The notes under the pieces are model-generated. The model saw only the letters and a program-made list of their open reading frames with translations, made no database searches and was not told the DNA's origin. This document shows, piece after piece, positions 24,665 through 32,251 of a DNA stretch of 33,353 nucleotides. The translations under genes were made by a program, and so were the position numbers. Positions within the stretch are counted from its first letter, which is position 1, and the number at the start of each line of letters is the position of its first letter. The DNA is from Methanothrix sp. (GTDB lineage Archaea; Halobacteriota; Methanosarcinia; Methanotrichales; Methanotrichaceae), in the NCBI GenBank assembly GCA_026394555.1, contig JAPKXZ010000054.1, forward strand, positions 1-33,353, written 5' to 3'.

Positions 24665-25561
24665 ATGATACGCAATATTAATAAATATAGTTTGATATTG
24701 ACTTTGCTGCTGGCAGTAACCATACTCTCAGGCTGCGTTTCACAAGATGAGTCCTCTTCCGGAACCCTTTCCGGCAATGCTTCCGGCAATGCGTCACACA
24801 GGATCAAGGTGGCCACGACCATCGCTCCTCTGGGCGACTTTGTGAAGGCAGTGGGCGGCGAGAAGGTCGAGGTTACGGTGGTAGTTCCGCCGGGAGCCGA
24901 GCCCCATACCTTCGAGCCCACGCCCTCTCTGATGATGAATGTGGCCAAAGCAAATCTCTATGTCATGAACGGGGCGGGTCTCGAGTTCTGGATGGACAAG
25001 CTGCTAGAGGCCAATAAGAGAATGGTAGTAGTAGACTCCTCTCAGGGCGTCGCCTTGCTGGAAGAGAGGAAAGGTGAAATAGATCCACACGTCTGGATCT
25101 CCCTAAGAAATGCTGCTTTCCAGGTGAATAACATCTGCTCCGGACTGATAGCGGTAGACCCGGCAAATAAAGATTATTATATCAAGAATAGAGATGATTA
25201 TTTGCAGAAGCTGCAATCCCTGGATGAAGAGCTGAATCAGACCTTTGCCGGCAAGAAGAACAGGATCTTCATTGTACACCATCCCGCCTGGACCTACTTC
25301 GCTCGGGACTACAACCTATCCCAGGTGCCGCTCATGGAGAATGAAAAGGAACCGGGCCCCAAGTACCTGGGCGAGGTGATCGACCTGGCCAGAAGGAATA
25401 ACATTACCACCATATTCATTGAGCCGGAGTATAACCCCAAGGCAGCCGAGGTGATCGCGCGGGAGATGAACGCCGGCATTGTGACTCTAGATCCCCTGGC
25501 TGAGAACTATCATGAAACAATGGCCTATGCTGGAAGAGAGATTGCCCTGAGCCTAGCATGA
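24665..25561 (+). CDS. Zinc/manganese-type ABC transporter solute-binding lipoprotein (ZnuA/TroA family)
   Basis: The 298-residue protein starts with a lipobox, 'LAVTILSGC', so Cys24 is the probable lipid anchor. The binding site has His81 (EPHTFEP), His142 (DPHVW) and His205/206 (VHHPAW), plus a late Asp in 'TLDPL', the standard ligands. A His-rich loop typical of many ZnuA proteins is absent. A 'SGNASGN' repeat linker follows the lipobox. It delivers metal to the downstream permease; zinc versus manganese cannot be told by sequence. The ATG at 24665 is 4 bases after the previous stop and overlaps the ATPase gene by 4 bases (ATGA). Confidence 0.93.
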   Translation: MIRNINKYSLILTLLLAVTILSGCVSQDESSSGTLSGNASGNASHRIKVATTIAPLGDFVKAVGGEKVEVTVVVPPGAEPHTFEPTPSLMMNVAKANLYVMNGAGLEFWMDKLLEANKRMVVVDSSQGVALLEERKGEIDPHVWISLRNAAFQVNNICSGLIAVDPANKDYYIKNRDDYLQKLQSLDEELNQTFAGKKNRIFIVHHPAWTYFARDYNLSQVPLMENEKEPGPKYLGEVIDLARRNNITTIFIEPEYNPKAAEVIAREMNAGIVTLDPLAENYHETMAYAGREIALSLA

Positions 25562-26319
25562 CAGAGAATATAGTATCCATAAAGGGCCTCTGGATCTGCC
25601 GGGCTTTGCACGCCGTCCTGGAGGACATAAATCTGGAGCTTGCAGCCGGCGACTTTCTCGGTCTGATCGGCCCCAACGGAGGCGGCAAATCCACCCTGCT
25701 AAAAGCAATGCTGGGACTGATCAAGCCCGATCGGGGCAGCATTGCCATCTTCGGGCTGCCGCCCGCAGCGGCACGGAGCCGAGTTGGCTACATGCCCCAG
25801 AAGACAGTCTTCGACCAGAGCTTTCCGGTTAATGTTTTGGATGTGGTGCTCATGGGAAGATATAGCCGCACCGGGCTCATGCACCGCTACGGCCCCCATG
25901 ATCGCATAGCTGCGCAGAATGCACTCGCTGCTGTGGGAATGGAAGACCGGGCTATGCGCGAGATTGGCGCACTCTCGGGAGGAGAGCAGCAGAGGGTCTT
26001 TGTCGCTCGCTCATTAGTCTCCGATCCAAAGCTGCTACTCCTGGATGAGCCCACGGCAGGCGTTGATTCCGCCCAGCAGACGGATTTTTACGATCTGCTC
26101 TGCCACCTGAATCGCGATCAGGGTATCGCCATTGTGCTGGTCTCCCATGATGTTACAGCCATCTCCAAATACGTGAGCAAGATTGCCTGCTTAAACCAGC
26201 GGCTTTATTATCATGACTCCAAGGAACTAAGCAATGAGGACATCGAGAAGGCCTACGGCTGCCCGGTGGAGATGATCGCGCACGGTACACCCCATCGGGT
26301 CTTGAGGGAACATGATTGA
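25558..26319 (+). CDS. Metal ABC transporter ATPase (ZnuC-like)
   Basis: The protein is 253 residues. Walker A is GPNGGGKST (near residue 40), the Q-loop 'MPQKTVFDQSFPV', the signature LSGGEQQRV, Walker B LLLLDEPTAGVD, and H-loop 'VLVSHDVTA'. The sequence resembles the ABC-type Mn/Zn group (PF00005). The ATG at 25558 overlaps the lipoprotein stop (ATGA), and the gene overlaps the permease by 8 bases. It powers import of the metal bound by the lipoprotein. Membrane-associated, cytoplasmic side. Confidence 0.94.
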   Translation: MTENIVSIKGLWICRALHAVLEDINLELAAGDFLGLIGPNGGGKSTLLKAMLGLIKPDRGSIAIFGLPPAAARSRVGYMPQKTVFDQSFPVNVLDVVLMGRYSRTGLMHRYGPHDRIAAQNALAAVGMEDRAMREIGALSGGEQQRVFVARSLVSDPKLLLLDEPTAGVDSAQQTDFYDLLCHLNRDQGIAIVLVSHDVTAISKYVSKIACLNQRLYYHDSKELSNEDIEKAYGCPVEMIAHGTPHRVLREHD

Positions 26320-27112
26320 TTTGGATTTTCTCCAGTACGACTTCATGAGAAATGCCCTGGCCGCGGGCCTGGCCGCCTCAGTGCTCTGCGGCGTAATTGG
26401 GATATATGTAATTTTAAATAAAATAGTATTCATAAGCGACGGCATCGCTCACGCTGCCTTTGGCGGCATTGGTCTTGGTTACTTCCTGGGCTACGATCCG
26501 CTGGCCTTCGGAATAGGATCGGCCGTAATAACTGCTCTCGGCATAGGCATGGTCAGCTCCCGGGCACGCATATCCGAGGATACGGCCATTGGTGTCTTCA
26601 TGGCCACCGGCATGGCTTTAGGAATAATGCTCCTCACTCTTTCCCAGGGCTATGCCAGAGACCTTTACGGCTACCTTTTCGGAAATATTTTAGCCGTGAC
26701 AAGGAGCGATGTTCTGCTTATTGCGGCACTCACATTGATCATCCTGGCTCTCGTCTTTCTGCTCTACAAAGAATTTCTTCTCCTGAGCTTCGATCCCATC
26801 TATGCACAGGCCATTGGCCTGCCCGTGCAAAGCCTTCGCCTCTTGCTCCTGGTCATGGTAGCCTTTAGCGTGGTCATTCTCATCAAGATCGTGGGGATAA
26901 TCATGGTCATAGCGCTTCTGACCATTCCCGGCGCCATAAGCCGGCGGCACATGTTGGGACTGCCCGCGATCATGGCCGGCTCCATATTATTGGGCGCGAT
27001 CTTTGTGACCATTGGGCTCTTGATATCTTATGAGCTGGATGTCCCATCCGGTGCGACCATAATTCTCACGGCAGCCTTAGCTTTTTTCCTGAGCACCGTG
27101 CTTTCCAGATAG
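26312..27112 (+). CDS. Metal ABC transporter permease (ZnuB-like, ABC-3 family)
   Basis: The protein is 266 residues with about eight membrane segments ('GLAASVLCGVIGIYVI' near the N-terminus, 'ALTLIILALVFLLY', 'LLLLVMVAFSVVILI', and the last 'GATIILTAALAFFLSTVL'). The family loop 'ISDGIAHAAFGGIGLGYFLG' and the 'RHMLGLPAIMAG' region fit ABC-3 permeases. Overlap of 8 bases with the ATPase gene. Full length. With the two genes before it this forms a complete import system. Confidence 0.93.
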   Translation: MIDLDFLQYDFMRNALAAGLAASVLCGVIGIYVILNKIVFISDGIAHAAFGGIGLGYFLGYDPLAFGIGSAVITALGIGMVSSRARISEDTAIGVFMATGMALGIMLLTLSQGYARDLYGYLFGNILAVTRSDVLLIAALTLIILALVFLLYKEFLLLSFDPIYAQAIGLPVQSLRLLLLVMVAFSVVILIKIVGIIMVIALLTIPGAISRRHMLGLPAIMAGSILLGAIFVTIGLLISYELDVPSGATIILTAALAFFLSTVLSR

Positions 27113-29076: not shown

Positions 29077-29845
29077 ATTGAACAAGTACCTGGCAAGCGC
29101 CTACAAGAACTGGATCATCTCCAAGAGGAACATCTTCACCTTATTCGAGCTATTCTTCTGGCCCATGATCAGCCTGCTATCCATTGGGCTGCTCACGCGG
29201 TTCTTGCGGGTGGAGGGCTCGATGGTCTCCTTTCTCCTGGTGGGCGCTATTGCCCTTACCATTTTGCAGGTGGCCCAGATCGATGTAGCCTACGTCCTCT
29301 TATTCGACATGTGGTCCAAGAGCATCAAGAACACTTTCATCGCTCCGATTCGTAGCTACCATCTGGTCTTTGGAGCAGCACTCTTCGGCATACTGCGGGG
29401 CAGTGTGGTCTTCTTCATTCTGGCGGTAGTCAGCCGCTACCTCTTTGGCTTTGATTTCCAGGAGGGAGGCCTTCTACCGGTGCTGATATTTCTGGCAGGT
29501 GTTTTCGCTACGGCTGCGGTCATCGGCATCACCGTGTGCATATCCATTCTCACCTTCGGCCAGAAGGCGGATGTTGCCGCCTGGAGCCTGAGCGGTATGA
29601 TCCTGCTCGTGAGTGGAATTTACTATCCCGTAGAGGTGCTGCCTCCCTTGCTGCAGACGATTGCCAGAATCATTCCCCTGACCTATTTTTTAGAATACTA
29701 CAGGTCAATATTTATTCCAGGCCCCCATCATCTGGCCATTGGTGCATTTCTGGCCGTTTTCTACCTGGTTCTAGGGCTGATCCTGCTGGATCGTGCTATT
29801 GAGAGGGCGAGAAGGACAGGCATCCTGCTGCGGCTGTCGGAGTAG
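29051..29845 (+). CDS. ABC-2 type transporter permease
   Basis: The 264-residue protein is of the ABC-2 membrane family (NodJ/DrrB-like). About six membrane segments are visible, with an amphipathic start 'KYLASAYKNWIISKRN', the helix 'LFELFFWPMISLLSIGLL', 'LPVLIFLAGVFATAAVIGI', and the 'GIYYPVEVLPPLLQTIARIIPLTYFLEYYRS' signature near the C-terminus. It pairs with the preceding ATPase; the two overlap by 26 bases. Substrate unknown. Confidence 0.93.
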   Translation: MYSLNWQGELNKYLASAYKNWIISKRNIFTLFELFFWPMISLLSIGLLTRFLRVEGSMVSFLLVGAIALTILQVAQIDVAYVLLFDMWSKSIKNTFIAPIRSYHLVFGAALFGILRGSVVFFILAVVSRYLFGFDFQEGGLLPVLIFLAGVFATAAVIGITVCISILTFGQKADVAAWSLSGMILLVSGIYYPVEVLPPLLQTIARIIPLTYFLEYYRSIFIPGPHHLAIGAFLAVFYLVLGLILLDRAIERARRTGILLRLSE

Positions 29846-29858
29846 TGTTGCAAGATAT

Positions 29859-29864
29859 GAGGTG
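29859..29864 (+). promoter_or_regulatory. Shine-Dalgarno that decides the folP-like start
   Basis: GAGGTG lies 6 bases before TTG 29871. An in-frame extension to 29793 would overlap the permease gene and add residues unlike the family. Confidence 0.65.
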
Positions 29865-29870
29865 TTGGGA

Positions 29871-31091
29871 TTGATAGAAGGCATTTTGGGTCGCGTCTTG
29901 GTCGGAGACAGTCATCCCGTGCGGCTGATGGGCATAATCAATCTAAGTCGTGAGTCCTTCTACCAGGGCTCAGTGGCCGGCCCTCATGAGGCTCTCTCCC
30001 TGGCGACAGCCATGCAAGAGCAGGGCGCGGATATGATAGATCTGGGCGGCGTCTCCACGGCGCCAGGCTCTCCTCTCATAAGTGAGGCAGTGGAACGAGA
30101 AAGGCTCTTTCCCGCTCTCAAGGATATTTTGGACAACCTGGATATCACCGTCTCCATTGATACGCAAAGGTCCGGCATTGCAAGCGAAGCCCTCTCGCGG
30201 GGAGCCGCCTGCATAAATGATGTCTCCGGACTGTCTGACCCCAATATGGCTGCCCGTGTGGCCGAGTACGACGCATCCCTGATCATCATGGCTTCCCGGC
30301 AGAGAGCGGGCGATCTGCTCCAAATAAACGAGATAATTGCCTTGCTGGGAGATAGAGTGAGGGCCGCGGCGAAGGCTGGCGTAAGCCCGGCTAAGATCTC
30401 GGTTGATCCGGGCATCGGCAAATGGATACCGGAAAAGACTCCTGCCCACGATCTGGCCATTTTGGACGGATTGCTCCGCCTGCGTGCTTTAGAGCGGCCG
30501 GTGGTCGCGGCTATTTCCCGCAAGTCCTTCATCGGGGAATGCCTGCATAAGCCCGATCCCTTCCAGAGATTGGCAGGAACGCTGGCGGCCACGGCCATAG
30601 CTGTTTATCTGGGGGCGCATATCGTCAGGACCCATGATATCGCCGCCAGCCTGGATACCGTAGCCATGGCCAAAGCCATTCGAGGCCGTCCGGCTGTGTC
30701 GGTAGATGAGGAGATGGAGGTGGAGGTGCTGGGCTATTTGGGCCAGGGGGAGGATCTAGCGGAAACATTGCGCCGGACAGAGGTAGATGAGCGGGGACTA
30801 AGCACTCTCTGCAAGAAAAGCTCTTTTCGCATCCTGGCTGTGCGCGGCCTTAGCAGCATGGAGGCCATAATAATAAAGCAGGAGATGCTGGCCCGAGGCG
30901 GAGACGCTGCCATTCCCAAGCTCGCTCTTCGCTGTGATCCAAGGCCAGAAGAGGTTTTAATATTCGGCACCTCCAACCAGATAGCTGGACTGGTAAAGAA
31001 CTTGAGCGGCCAGCCCTTCCGACTCATGCGCCTGGCCGCGAGGATAGATGAGGCTACTAAAATGATAGAAAACCCAGAACGTTACGGGTGA
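29871..31091 (+). CDS. Dihydropteroate synthase-like protein with a C-terminal extension
   Basis: The 406-residue protein starts at TTG 29871. The DHPS TIM-barrel motifs run in order: GIINLSRESF (21-30), the counterpart of GILNVTPDSF; 'TVSIDTQRSG'; 'CINDVSGL'; DPGIGK (179-184); SRKSF (216-220); and 'IVRTHDIAASL' near the barrel end. They are all intact. Standard DHPS is about 270-280 residues; here about 120 more follow ('SFRILAVRGLSSMEAIIIKQEML', 'LIFGTSNQIAGLVKNLSG'), an alpha/beta extension known from some bacterial and archaeal folP genes. It would condense a pterin diphosphate with a p-aminobenzoate-type substrate for folate or methanopterin. Its stop overlaps the GTG of the next gene, so the two are coupled. 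Which cofactor is made cannot be settled here. Confidence 0.88.
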   Translation: MIEGILGRVLVGDSHPVRLMGIINLSRESFYQGSVAGPHEALSLATAMQEQGADMIDLGGVSTAPGSPLISEAVERERLFPALKDILDNLDITVSIDTQRSGIASEALSRGAACINDVSGLSDPNMAARVAEYDASLIIMASRQRAGDLLQINEIIALLGDRVRAAAKAGVSPAKISVDPGIGKWIPEKTPAHDLAILDGLLRLRALERPVVAAISRKSFIGECLHKPDPFQRLAGTLAATAIAVYLGAHIVRTHDIAASLDTVAMAKAIRGRPAVSVDEEMEVEVLGYLGQGEDLAETLRRTEVDERGLSTLCKKSSFRILAVRGLSSMEAIIIKQEMLARGGDAAIPKLALRCDPRPEEVLIFGTSNQIAGLVKNLSGQPFRLMRLAARIDEATKMIENPERYG

Positions 31092-32251
31092 GTGTATTGC
31101 AGGTTTTAGGAATAAAGACGGATCTTATAAAACCGGGCGATGGCCTGGCGGCATCCCTGGAAAAAGCCATGGCCGAATCGGGCCTGGCTTTACAGGACGG
31201 CGACATTCTGGTCATCTCGGAGAGCACGCTCGCAACCGCGGAGGGAAGAGTTGTGGCTTTGCATGATGTCACTCCTGGACCCCTCGCCCTCTCCATGGCC
31301 GCCAGGTACAGCAAAGATCCGCGCGAGATGGAACTGATCCTGCAAGAATCTGATGAGATAATGGGGGGCATTCCAGGCGTGGTGCTGACGCTAAGGGAGG
31401 GCTTTCTTTATCCCAACGCCGGCATCGATAGCTCCAATGCCCCTCCCGGTCACGTGGTTCTATTTCCGGCCGATGCACAAAAATCGGCAATCAAGATTAG
31501 GGAGCGCATGGCGAAAGGCAGAAGGATTGCGGTTATCATCGGCGACAGCCGGACTCATCCCCTGCGACTGGGCTGCGTAGGCGTGGCCCTGGCCTGTGTG
31601 GGCCTGGAGCCGGTCGAGGACGCGCGCGGCCAAAAGGACCTCTTCGGTCGGGAGCTCAAGATCACTCGCAAGGCAGTGGCAGACAATTTAGTCTCTGCCG
31701 CTCAGATAGTAATGGGTGAAGGAGACGAGGGAATTCCGGCCGTGATCATAAGAAATGCACCTGTGTCCATTAGCGAGGTGCAAAGCGCCATCCCCTCCAT
31801 CCCACCAGAGGAGTGCATGTACATCGGTGCACTGCGCTCCGGCCCCCGCCCTTACACGGGAGGATACGATCATCTCATCCTGCAGGCTAAAGAGGCAGCG
31901 AAAGATGCCTATGCCCCTTACTCTGGATTTTTGGTAGGCGCGGCGCTTCTCTCCCGGAGCGGCAAAATCTACTCGGCCGGCAACATTGAGAATGCCGCTT
32001 CCGGGGCGGGCATCTGTGCGGAGAGGGCGGCCCTGGCAAAAGCTATTGCCTCTGGTGAGCGTGAATTTGAGGCGATTGCCATAGTAGGAAACGCTGACGA
32101 GCCAATATCGCCCTGTGGCATATGCCGGCAGAGCCTGATAGAATTCGGAGAGAATATTATTATCATCATGAGCAATGCGAAAGGCGATGCACTGACGGCT
32201 ACGCTCGCCGATCTCCTGCCAAGAGCGTTTACGGGCAAGTGCCTGAGATAG
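31088..32251 (+). CDS. CofE-superfamily gamma-glutamyl ligase fused to a cytidine deaminase domain
   Basis: One 387-residue frame carries two domains. Residues 1-250 are CofE-like (COG1478): 'DGDILVISESTLATAEGRVV', 'FLYPNAGIDSSNAP', 'IIGDSRTHPLRLGCVGVAL', 'KDLFGRELKITRKAVADNLVSAAQIVMGE'. After a linker (about 251-262), residues 263-387 are a cytidine deaminase: 'AKDAYAPYSGFLVGAALL', 'NIENAASGAGICAERAAL', 'PCGICRQSLIEF', with Cys310, Glu312, Cys343 and Cys346 intact. There is no stop or frameshift between them. The GTG start (31088) overlaps the folP-like stop. The motif GDSRTHPLRLG differs from the GRP-type motif I recall for characterised CofE, so F420-0 ligase activity is not assured. A FolC-replacing role beside folP is an alternative. 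The deaminase half would convert cytidine/deoxycytidine to uridine/deoxyuridine. Confidence 0.88.
   Translation: MSVLQVLGIKTDLIKPGDGLAASLEKAMAESGLALQDGDILVISESTLATAEGRVVALHDVTPGPLALSMAARYSKDPREMELILQESDEIMGGIPGVVLTLREGFLYPNAGIDSSNAPPGHVVLFPADAQKSAIKIRERMAKGRRIAVIIGDSRTHPLRLGCVGVALACVGLEPVEDARGQKDLFGRELKITRKAVADNLVSAAQIVMGEGDEGIPAVIIRNAPVSISEVQSAIPSIPPEECMYIGALRSGPRPYTGGYDHLILQAKEAAKDAYAPYSGFLVGAALLSRSGKIYSAGNIENAASGAGICAERAALAKAIASGEREFEAIAIVGNADEPISPCGICRQSLIEFGENIIIIMSNAKGDALTATLADLLPRAFTGKCLR

Follow-up and report, generated by a model that had tools for sequence, protein, structure and literature searches.

A family-wide fusion of a CofE-superfamily glutamate ligase and a cytidine deaminase in Methanotrichaceae

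We analyzed a stretch of 33,353 nucleotides (contig JAPKXZ010000054.1 of GenBank assembly GCA_026394555.1; referred to here as the window) from a Methanothrix MAG and found a gene in which a CofE-superfamily glutamate ligase is joined to a cytidine deaminase. This fusion is genuine and old, and it extends across the Methanotrichaceae. With a probability of about 0.72, we read the first half of the product as a FolC2-type dihydrofolate synthase/folate glutamate ligase and the second half as a working cytidine deaminase for nucleosides. No published description of a fusion of a CofE-superfamily domain with a cytidine deaminase was found in open-access full-text searches. Ancient and spread across the family, the fusion is a marker of Methanotrichaceae, a group with major aceticlastic methanogens among its members.

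A fused gene conserved in Methanotrichaceae

The initial annotation described a CofE-like domain and a deaminase in a single uninterrupted frame, and profile searches bore this out: both PF01996 and TIGR01354 were matched in full within one 387-aa open reading frame (Table 1). The PF01996 match (hmmscan; E value, 6e-76) covered profile positions 1 to 218 of 218 and scored 255 bits (cutoff, 25). The second part was recognized by TIGR01354 (cyt_deam_tetra; 128.8 bits versus a cutoff of 113.65) and, at residues 263 to 359, by PF00383 (dCMP_cyt_deam_1; E value, 2e-15). We also prepared an AlphaFold model of the full protein (monomer; 40-sequence alignment; mean pLDDT, 81.9). Its first part matched Archaeoglobus fulgidus CofE (2phn) with a TM-score of 0.84, and its second part matched a bacterial Cdd (2d30) with a TM-score of 0.93 (both by target length). 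The model was weak at loop 156-163, which was therefore left out when judging the ligase pocket. Translation may begin at GTG 31088, which shares 4 nt (GTGA) with the end of folP, or at TTG 31097; the close junction with folP is kept in relatives.

Table 1. Coordinates of the fused gene, its parts, and the adjoining folP gene in the window
Feature	Position	Strand	Description or basis
Fused ligase-deaminase gene	31088..32251	+	387 aa; single open frame; GTG start
Predicted product of the fused gene: CofE-superfamily (FolC2-like) glutamate ligase plus cytidine deaminase	31088..32251	+	Profile searches and shared architecture in relatives
F420_ligase (PF01996) domain	31109..31756	+	Residues 8-223; fold match to 2phn
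Ligase loop GDSRTHPLRLG	31541..31573	+	Residues 152-162; occupies the site of the CofE loop TDTNGRCFRRG
Linker following the ECMY motif	31823..31867	+	Residues 246-260; alignment and linker list
Tetrameric-type cytidine deaminase domain	31871..32239	+	Residues 262-384; TIGR01354 above cutoff; fold match to 2d30
C310-A311-E312, predicted zinc ligand and catalytic glutamate	32015..32023	+	39/39 fused rows
P342-C343-G-x-C346, predicted remaining two zinc ligands	32111..32125	+	39/39 fused rows
folP, dihydropteroate synthase with C-terminal extension	29793..31091	+	TIGR01496, 212 bits versus a cutoff of 162.6

The closest relatives of the source genome were Methanothrix/Methanotrichaceae (96% identity to Methanothrix sp. 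S02.Bin032). Our main sample comprised 61 genomes of the class Methanosarcinia (30 Methanotrichaceae and 31 others), all of which contained a match to the fused protein. The fusion was carried by 27 of the 30 Methanotrichaceae, among them genomes that are near-closed or in a single contig (G007, G029, and CP086218.1). A TIGR01354 deaminase was present in 27 of the 61 genomes; all 27 were Methanotrichaceae, and the main deaminase always lay within the fused frame. A search for stand-alone halves in relatives found the ligase alone in all 31 other genomes of the class (51 to 60% identity), and no cytidine deaminase of the TIGR01354 family was found in those 31. The recurrence of the same continuous frame in other Methanotrichaceae (27/30, including single-contig genomes) rules out chance or an assembly join. 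In a phylum-wide sample, the cytidine deaminases outside Methanotrichaceae were encoded by genes of their own, and almost all belonged to the HAE type that haloarchaea have. Some long haloarchaeal Cdd frames resembled fusions, and these were apparently chance open frames of GC-rich DNA.

Two fused copies were imperfect, one being truncated by a contig end (G037) and the other frameshifted at a run of C (G019, a two-contig genome; L059, G019:C2, about 2164273-2164288). The frameshift is either a sequencing error or strain-specific decay. The fused gene was missing from three Methanotrichaceae genomes (G017, G035, and G045), two of which also lack folP; in the third, what is left of folP is a fragment at the edge of a contig. 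The locus was thus perhaps lost from these assemblies, and the missing genes may reflect assembly gaps.

Both halves are under purifying selection. Between the fused gene and its near relatives, dN/dS was 0.06 to 0.13 for the ligase half and 0.04 to 0.22 for the deaminase half. At values of about 0.1, a pseudogene was rejected, with the G019 frameshift as the single exception. The pairwise distances of the two halves were correlated (r = 0.86), and the linker length was conserved save for a few insertions. Maximum-likelihood analysis of 75 ligase domains placed the fused ligases in one clade (support, 98/93) beside the stand-alone ones, and the two groups together formed a clade of their own (96/93). 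In the stand-alone orthologues, little sequence follows the conserved ECMY motif. The simplest history would be a single fusion event in the ancestor of Methanotrichaceae, with a deaminase added at the ligase C terminus just past ECMY. That deaminase was probably of bacterial origin. A haloarchaeal origin was rejected, given that haloarchaeal deaminases are stand-alone, of the HAE type, and only 33 to 43% identical; the closest stand-alone Cdd among those compared (L085) had 46% identity to the fused deaminase.

The ligase half, true CofE, and the folate context

Another CofE-family gene is present in almost all genomes of the class. In the source genome, this other copy (G000:C36:9033-9650) is followed by cofC, has the GR-type loop, and passes both CofE models, i.e., TIGR01916 and PRK13293. 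The fused ligase also exceeds the equivalog model TIGR01916 (211 versus 180.65 bits) and falls below PRK13293 (205 versus 274). In the tree, the other copy and its counterparts clustered with the characterized AF2256 (100/100), and the fused and stand-alone ligases lay outside this cluster. One true CofE reading frame (L079:8952-9947) was called with an N-terminal extension of approximately 90 aa, which is probably a start-site artifact.

The initial annotation noted that the loop GDSRTHPLRLG departs from the motif of characterized CofE. This departure from the GR-type loop proved to be general: the fused protein reads IIGDSRTHPLRLG at residues 150 to 162, and the loop takes the form DSRT(H/Q)P(L/M) in fused and stand-alone ligases versus DT(N/C)GRxF in CofE, with DSRT in 34/34 fused and 20/20 stand-alone rows and DT.GR.F in 19/19 CofE rows. 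D114, D153, and E211 are invariant and align with D109, D150, and E208 of AF2256, which we take to be metal/GTP ligands. Elsewhere in the alignment, F92 of AF2256 (F, I, V, or L among CofE) is replaced by G97, E197 is replaced by N200, and G153-C155 align with T156-H157-P158. In complexes of AF2256, F92, G153-C155, and R234 of the partner chain hold the chromophore of F420 (PMC10861534). The replacement of F92 and G153-C155, together with the separate clade and the cofC-linked second copy, makes it very likely that the fused ligase is not a true CofE. The suspicion that this half might not be the F420-0 ligase was therefore probably right, with the true CofE encoded elsewhere. TIGR01916, a standard model, would nevertheless label it as an F420-0 ligase, very likely wrongly.

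The genomic context points to folate. A tetrahydrofolate gene cluster is known from Methanosarcinaceae and ANME-2 (PMC9012536). In our sample, the stand-alone orthologue was the last gene of this cluster, a conserved run of purN-glyA-folD-folP-(metV)-metF-thiC-like-ligase; the metV label was taken from the literature cluster, and NCBIfam had no match for that gene. This run was found in Methanosarcinaceae and a neighboring family, with gaps and insertions that vary by genus. With its metV, metF, and thiC-like members, the cluster extends beyond folate synthesis proper, which counts against a folate ligase. In most Methanotrichaceae, the cluster is dispersed, yet folP remains directly upstream of the fused gene; in the source genome, glyA and folD adjoin and purN lies elsewhere. 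FolC (TIGR01499) was above its cutoff in none of the 61 genomes of the class. Matches to DHPS, FolD, and PurN were each present in 59 of them, with DHPS above its cutoff in 58. Because folP overlaps upstream and folC is missing, dihydropteroate, which the initial annotation listed among the compounds to assay, is the best candidate substrate.

There are precedents for such a role within the superfamily: Chlamydia CT611 (COG1478 FolC2) complements an Escherichia coli folC mutant (PMC1971073), and folC2 is required for 5,10-CH=THF in Lactobacillus reuteri (PMC5061717). The fused ligase scored far below the folate ligase model TIGR04132 (116 versus a cutoff of 350 bits). It is thus FolC2-like in predicted role and in context and no member of the TIGR04132 bacterial subfamily. 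We consider the ligase half to be probably a folate ligase, i.e., a FolC2-type dihydrofolate synthase. The fused and stand-alone ligases would then be concrete candidates for the dihydrofolate synthase missing from the folC-less, folate-using Methanosarcinia, and this assignment is the more useful part of the finding. Genomes of the Methanosarcina type, which are open to genetic work, carry the stand-alone orthologue.

An improbable alternative is that the ligase half acts as an additional glutamyl ligase for F420-0 (or F420-1), e.g., one that lengthens the tail, and that its adjacency to folP is incidental. The TIGR01916 score, the presence of two CofE-family genes in almost every genome of the class, and the tails of 4 to 5 glutamates on F420 in methanogens with cytochromes (PMC8498797) are consistent with such an enzyme, but the positions of the F420 chromophore pocket are replaced throughout the clade. 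Moreover, the context is one of folate genes in Methanosarcinaceae and of folP in Methanotrichaceae, with the other copy beside cofC, and a second F420 ligase would leave the dihydrofolate synthase of this folC-less class still missing.

Several further observations concern the neighborhood. The folP gene extends approximately 130 aa C-terminal of the DHPS domain (29793-31091), and DHPS frames of >400 aa are usual across the class, indicating that the extension is class-wide. In several Methanosarcinaceae, a ThiC-like protein is encoded between metF and the stand-alone ligase (L067:8200-9468 and equivalents). It is above the PRK13352 cutoff and under that of TIGR00190, and it may serve folate/pterin rather than thiamine metabolism. 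Two Peregrinibacteria (L031:6001-7357 and L032:5995-7490) encode a CofE-superfamily ligase (41 to 42% identity; loop, DSHCQPLRWG) directly before a PurN-like gene, which was recognized by eye; this ligase is another FolC2 candidate. Upstream of folP and the fusion, the window encodes a zinc/manganese-type ABC transporter (24665-27112; substrate-binding protein, ATPase, and permease), followed by a protein that looks exported and by an ABC-2 exporter. L076, L077, and L078 (three genera) have these gene families ahead of folP and the fusion as well. A tie between this transporter and the zinc need of the deaminase is speculative.

The deaminase half

The initial annotation reported that Cys310, Glu312, Cys343, and Cys346 were intact, and these residues do read C, E, C, and C. 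Across the family, F281, N299, E301, C310, A311, E312, R313, C343, and C346 were invariant in 39/39 fused rows, and F381 was present in 38/39. At residue 305, which we take to be the position of Tyr48 in Bacillus subtilis Cdd and where Tyr is usual, nearly all fused copies have Ser, which counts against ordinary Cdd activity. The fused copy was the only cytidine deaminase in most Methanotrichaceae genomes that carry it. The conserved residues suggest that this half probably acts on cytidine and deoxycytidine. In one genome, a second, stand-alone deaminase fragment (G039:C41:15637-17635) lies approximately 1.6 kb from a phosphorylase of the PYNP_C type; some Methanotrichaceae may thus have a separate pair for nucleoside catabolism.

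The deaminase half might instead act outside cytidine salvage, either in a structural or regulatory capacity or on a different amino-pyrimidine, e.g., a riboflavin/F420 precursor, for which the archaeal deaminase is, to our knowledge, unassigned. The fusion to a coenzyme enzyme, S305, the lack of a thymidine kinase, and a PF01048 phosphorylase that resembles methylthioadenosine phosphorylase would fit such a role. We nevertheless regard it as improbable: the zinc, proton-shuttle, and ribose-binding (F281, N299, and E301) positions are all invariant, dN/dS is about 0.1, and the Cdd equivalog model is passed. In addition, every methanogen requires the riboflavin step, whereas within the class this domain is confined to Methanotrichaceae.

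Proposed function and comparison with known systems

The scheme that we infer, including both activities, their substrates, the oligomeric state, and any coupling of the halves, starts from one polypeptide with two enzymes. The first half would use GTP or ATP and a divalent metal to activate a pterin substrate at its carboxylate and would join L-glutamate to it; the substrate would most likely be 7,8-dihydropteroate from the adjacent folP and perhaps also folate monoglutamate. It would thereby cover the dihydrofolate synthase/folate glutamylation step that is done elsewhere by FolC. As a CofE paralogue found throughout the sampled Methanosarcinia, it would feed a biosynthetic tetrahydrofolate pool (PurN, GlyA, and FolD). 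The second half would be a zinc cytidine/deoxycytidine deaminase of a non-haloarchaeal and probably bacterial type, attached once in the ancestor of Methanotrichaceae and serving as the usual and mostly the only cytidine deaminase of those cells.

Methanosarcinia make H4MPT-type cofactors, and sarcinapterin bears an extra glutamate; instead of folate, the ligase might thus glutamylate a modified form of it, namely tetrahydrosarcinapterin or one of its precursors, the more so if the folP-like protein acts on related pterins. This substrate is quite improbable: the known glutamate ligase for sarcinapterin, MptN, is an unrelated ATP-grasp enzyme that forms an alpha link, and purN, glyA, folD, and metF of the cluster belong to tetrahydrofolate metabolism.

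The initial annotation also tied the fusion to thymidylate synthesis, and this link found no support. No thymidine kinase (PF00265) was found in the 61 genomes of the class, which leaves deoxyuridine without the classical route to dUMP, and extracts of Methanosarcina thermophila were reported to make dTMP with tetrahydrosarcinapterin (PMC9931769). Although the source genome has a methanogen-type ThyA (TIGR03283), where folate and deoxyuridine could in principle meet, this ThyA may use tetrahydrosarcinapterin, and a coupling of deoxyuridine production with thymidylate synthesis is highly improbable. The tetrahydrofolate genes seem to point at least equally to purine formylation (PurN). A phosphorylase route for the uridine formed was also considered: the PF01048 protein of the source genome looks like methylthioadenosine phosphorylase, while members of the PYNP_C family, similar in size to AMP phosphorylase, occur in almost the whole class.

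A stronger version of the preferred reading is that a hidden archaeal dihydrofolate synthase, labeled as an F420-0 ligase in databases, is physically coupled to pyrimidine nucleoside deamination in Methanotrichaceae, with nucleoside supply and folate glutamylation assembled or regulated together. We consider this unlikely; if true, the coupling would join one-carbon and nucleotide metabolism at a regulated point described nowhere else.

Each half of the fused protein is of a known kind, CofE being a dimer and Cdd a tetramer. The ligase half shares the Pfam family and fold of CofE (AF2256; PDB 2PHN/7ULD), with D114, D153, and E211 aligned, and differs in its separate clade, its DSRTHPL loop, G97, N200, its Cdd partner, and its folP context. 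Like FolC2 of Chlamydia (CT611) and L. reuteri, it belongs to the CofE superfamily, lies beside folate genes, and would have been recruited where folC is absent or insufficient; unlike them, the fused protein is archaeal, falls under the TIGR04132 cutoff, and bears a deaminase domain. The deaminase half has the fold and the catalytic, zinc, and ribose-binding residues of tetrameric Cdd (B. subtilis 1JTK and Bacillus anthracis 2D30), but here it is the C-terminal domain of a 387-aa fusion and has Ser305 in place of the usual Tyr. The fusion of a CofE-superfamily domain to a second enzyme has a precedent in FbiB, a single chain in which another enzyme domain likewise follows the CofE-superfamily domain (PMC8498797), whereas the partner in FbiB is a nitroreductase-family domain and the glutamylated cofactor probably differs from that of the fused gene.
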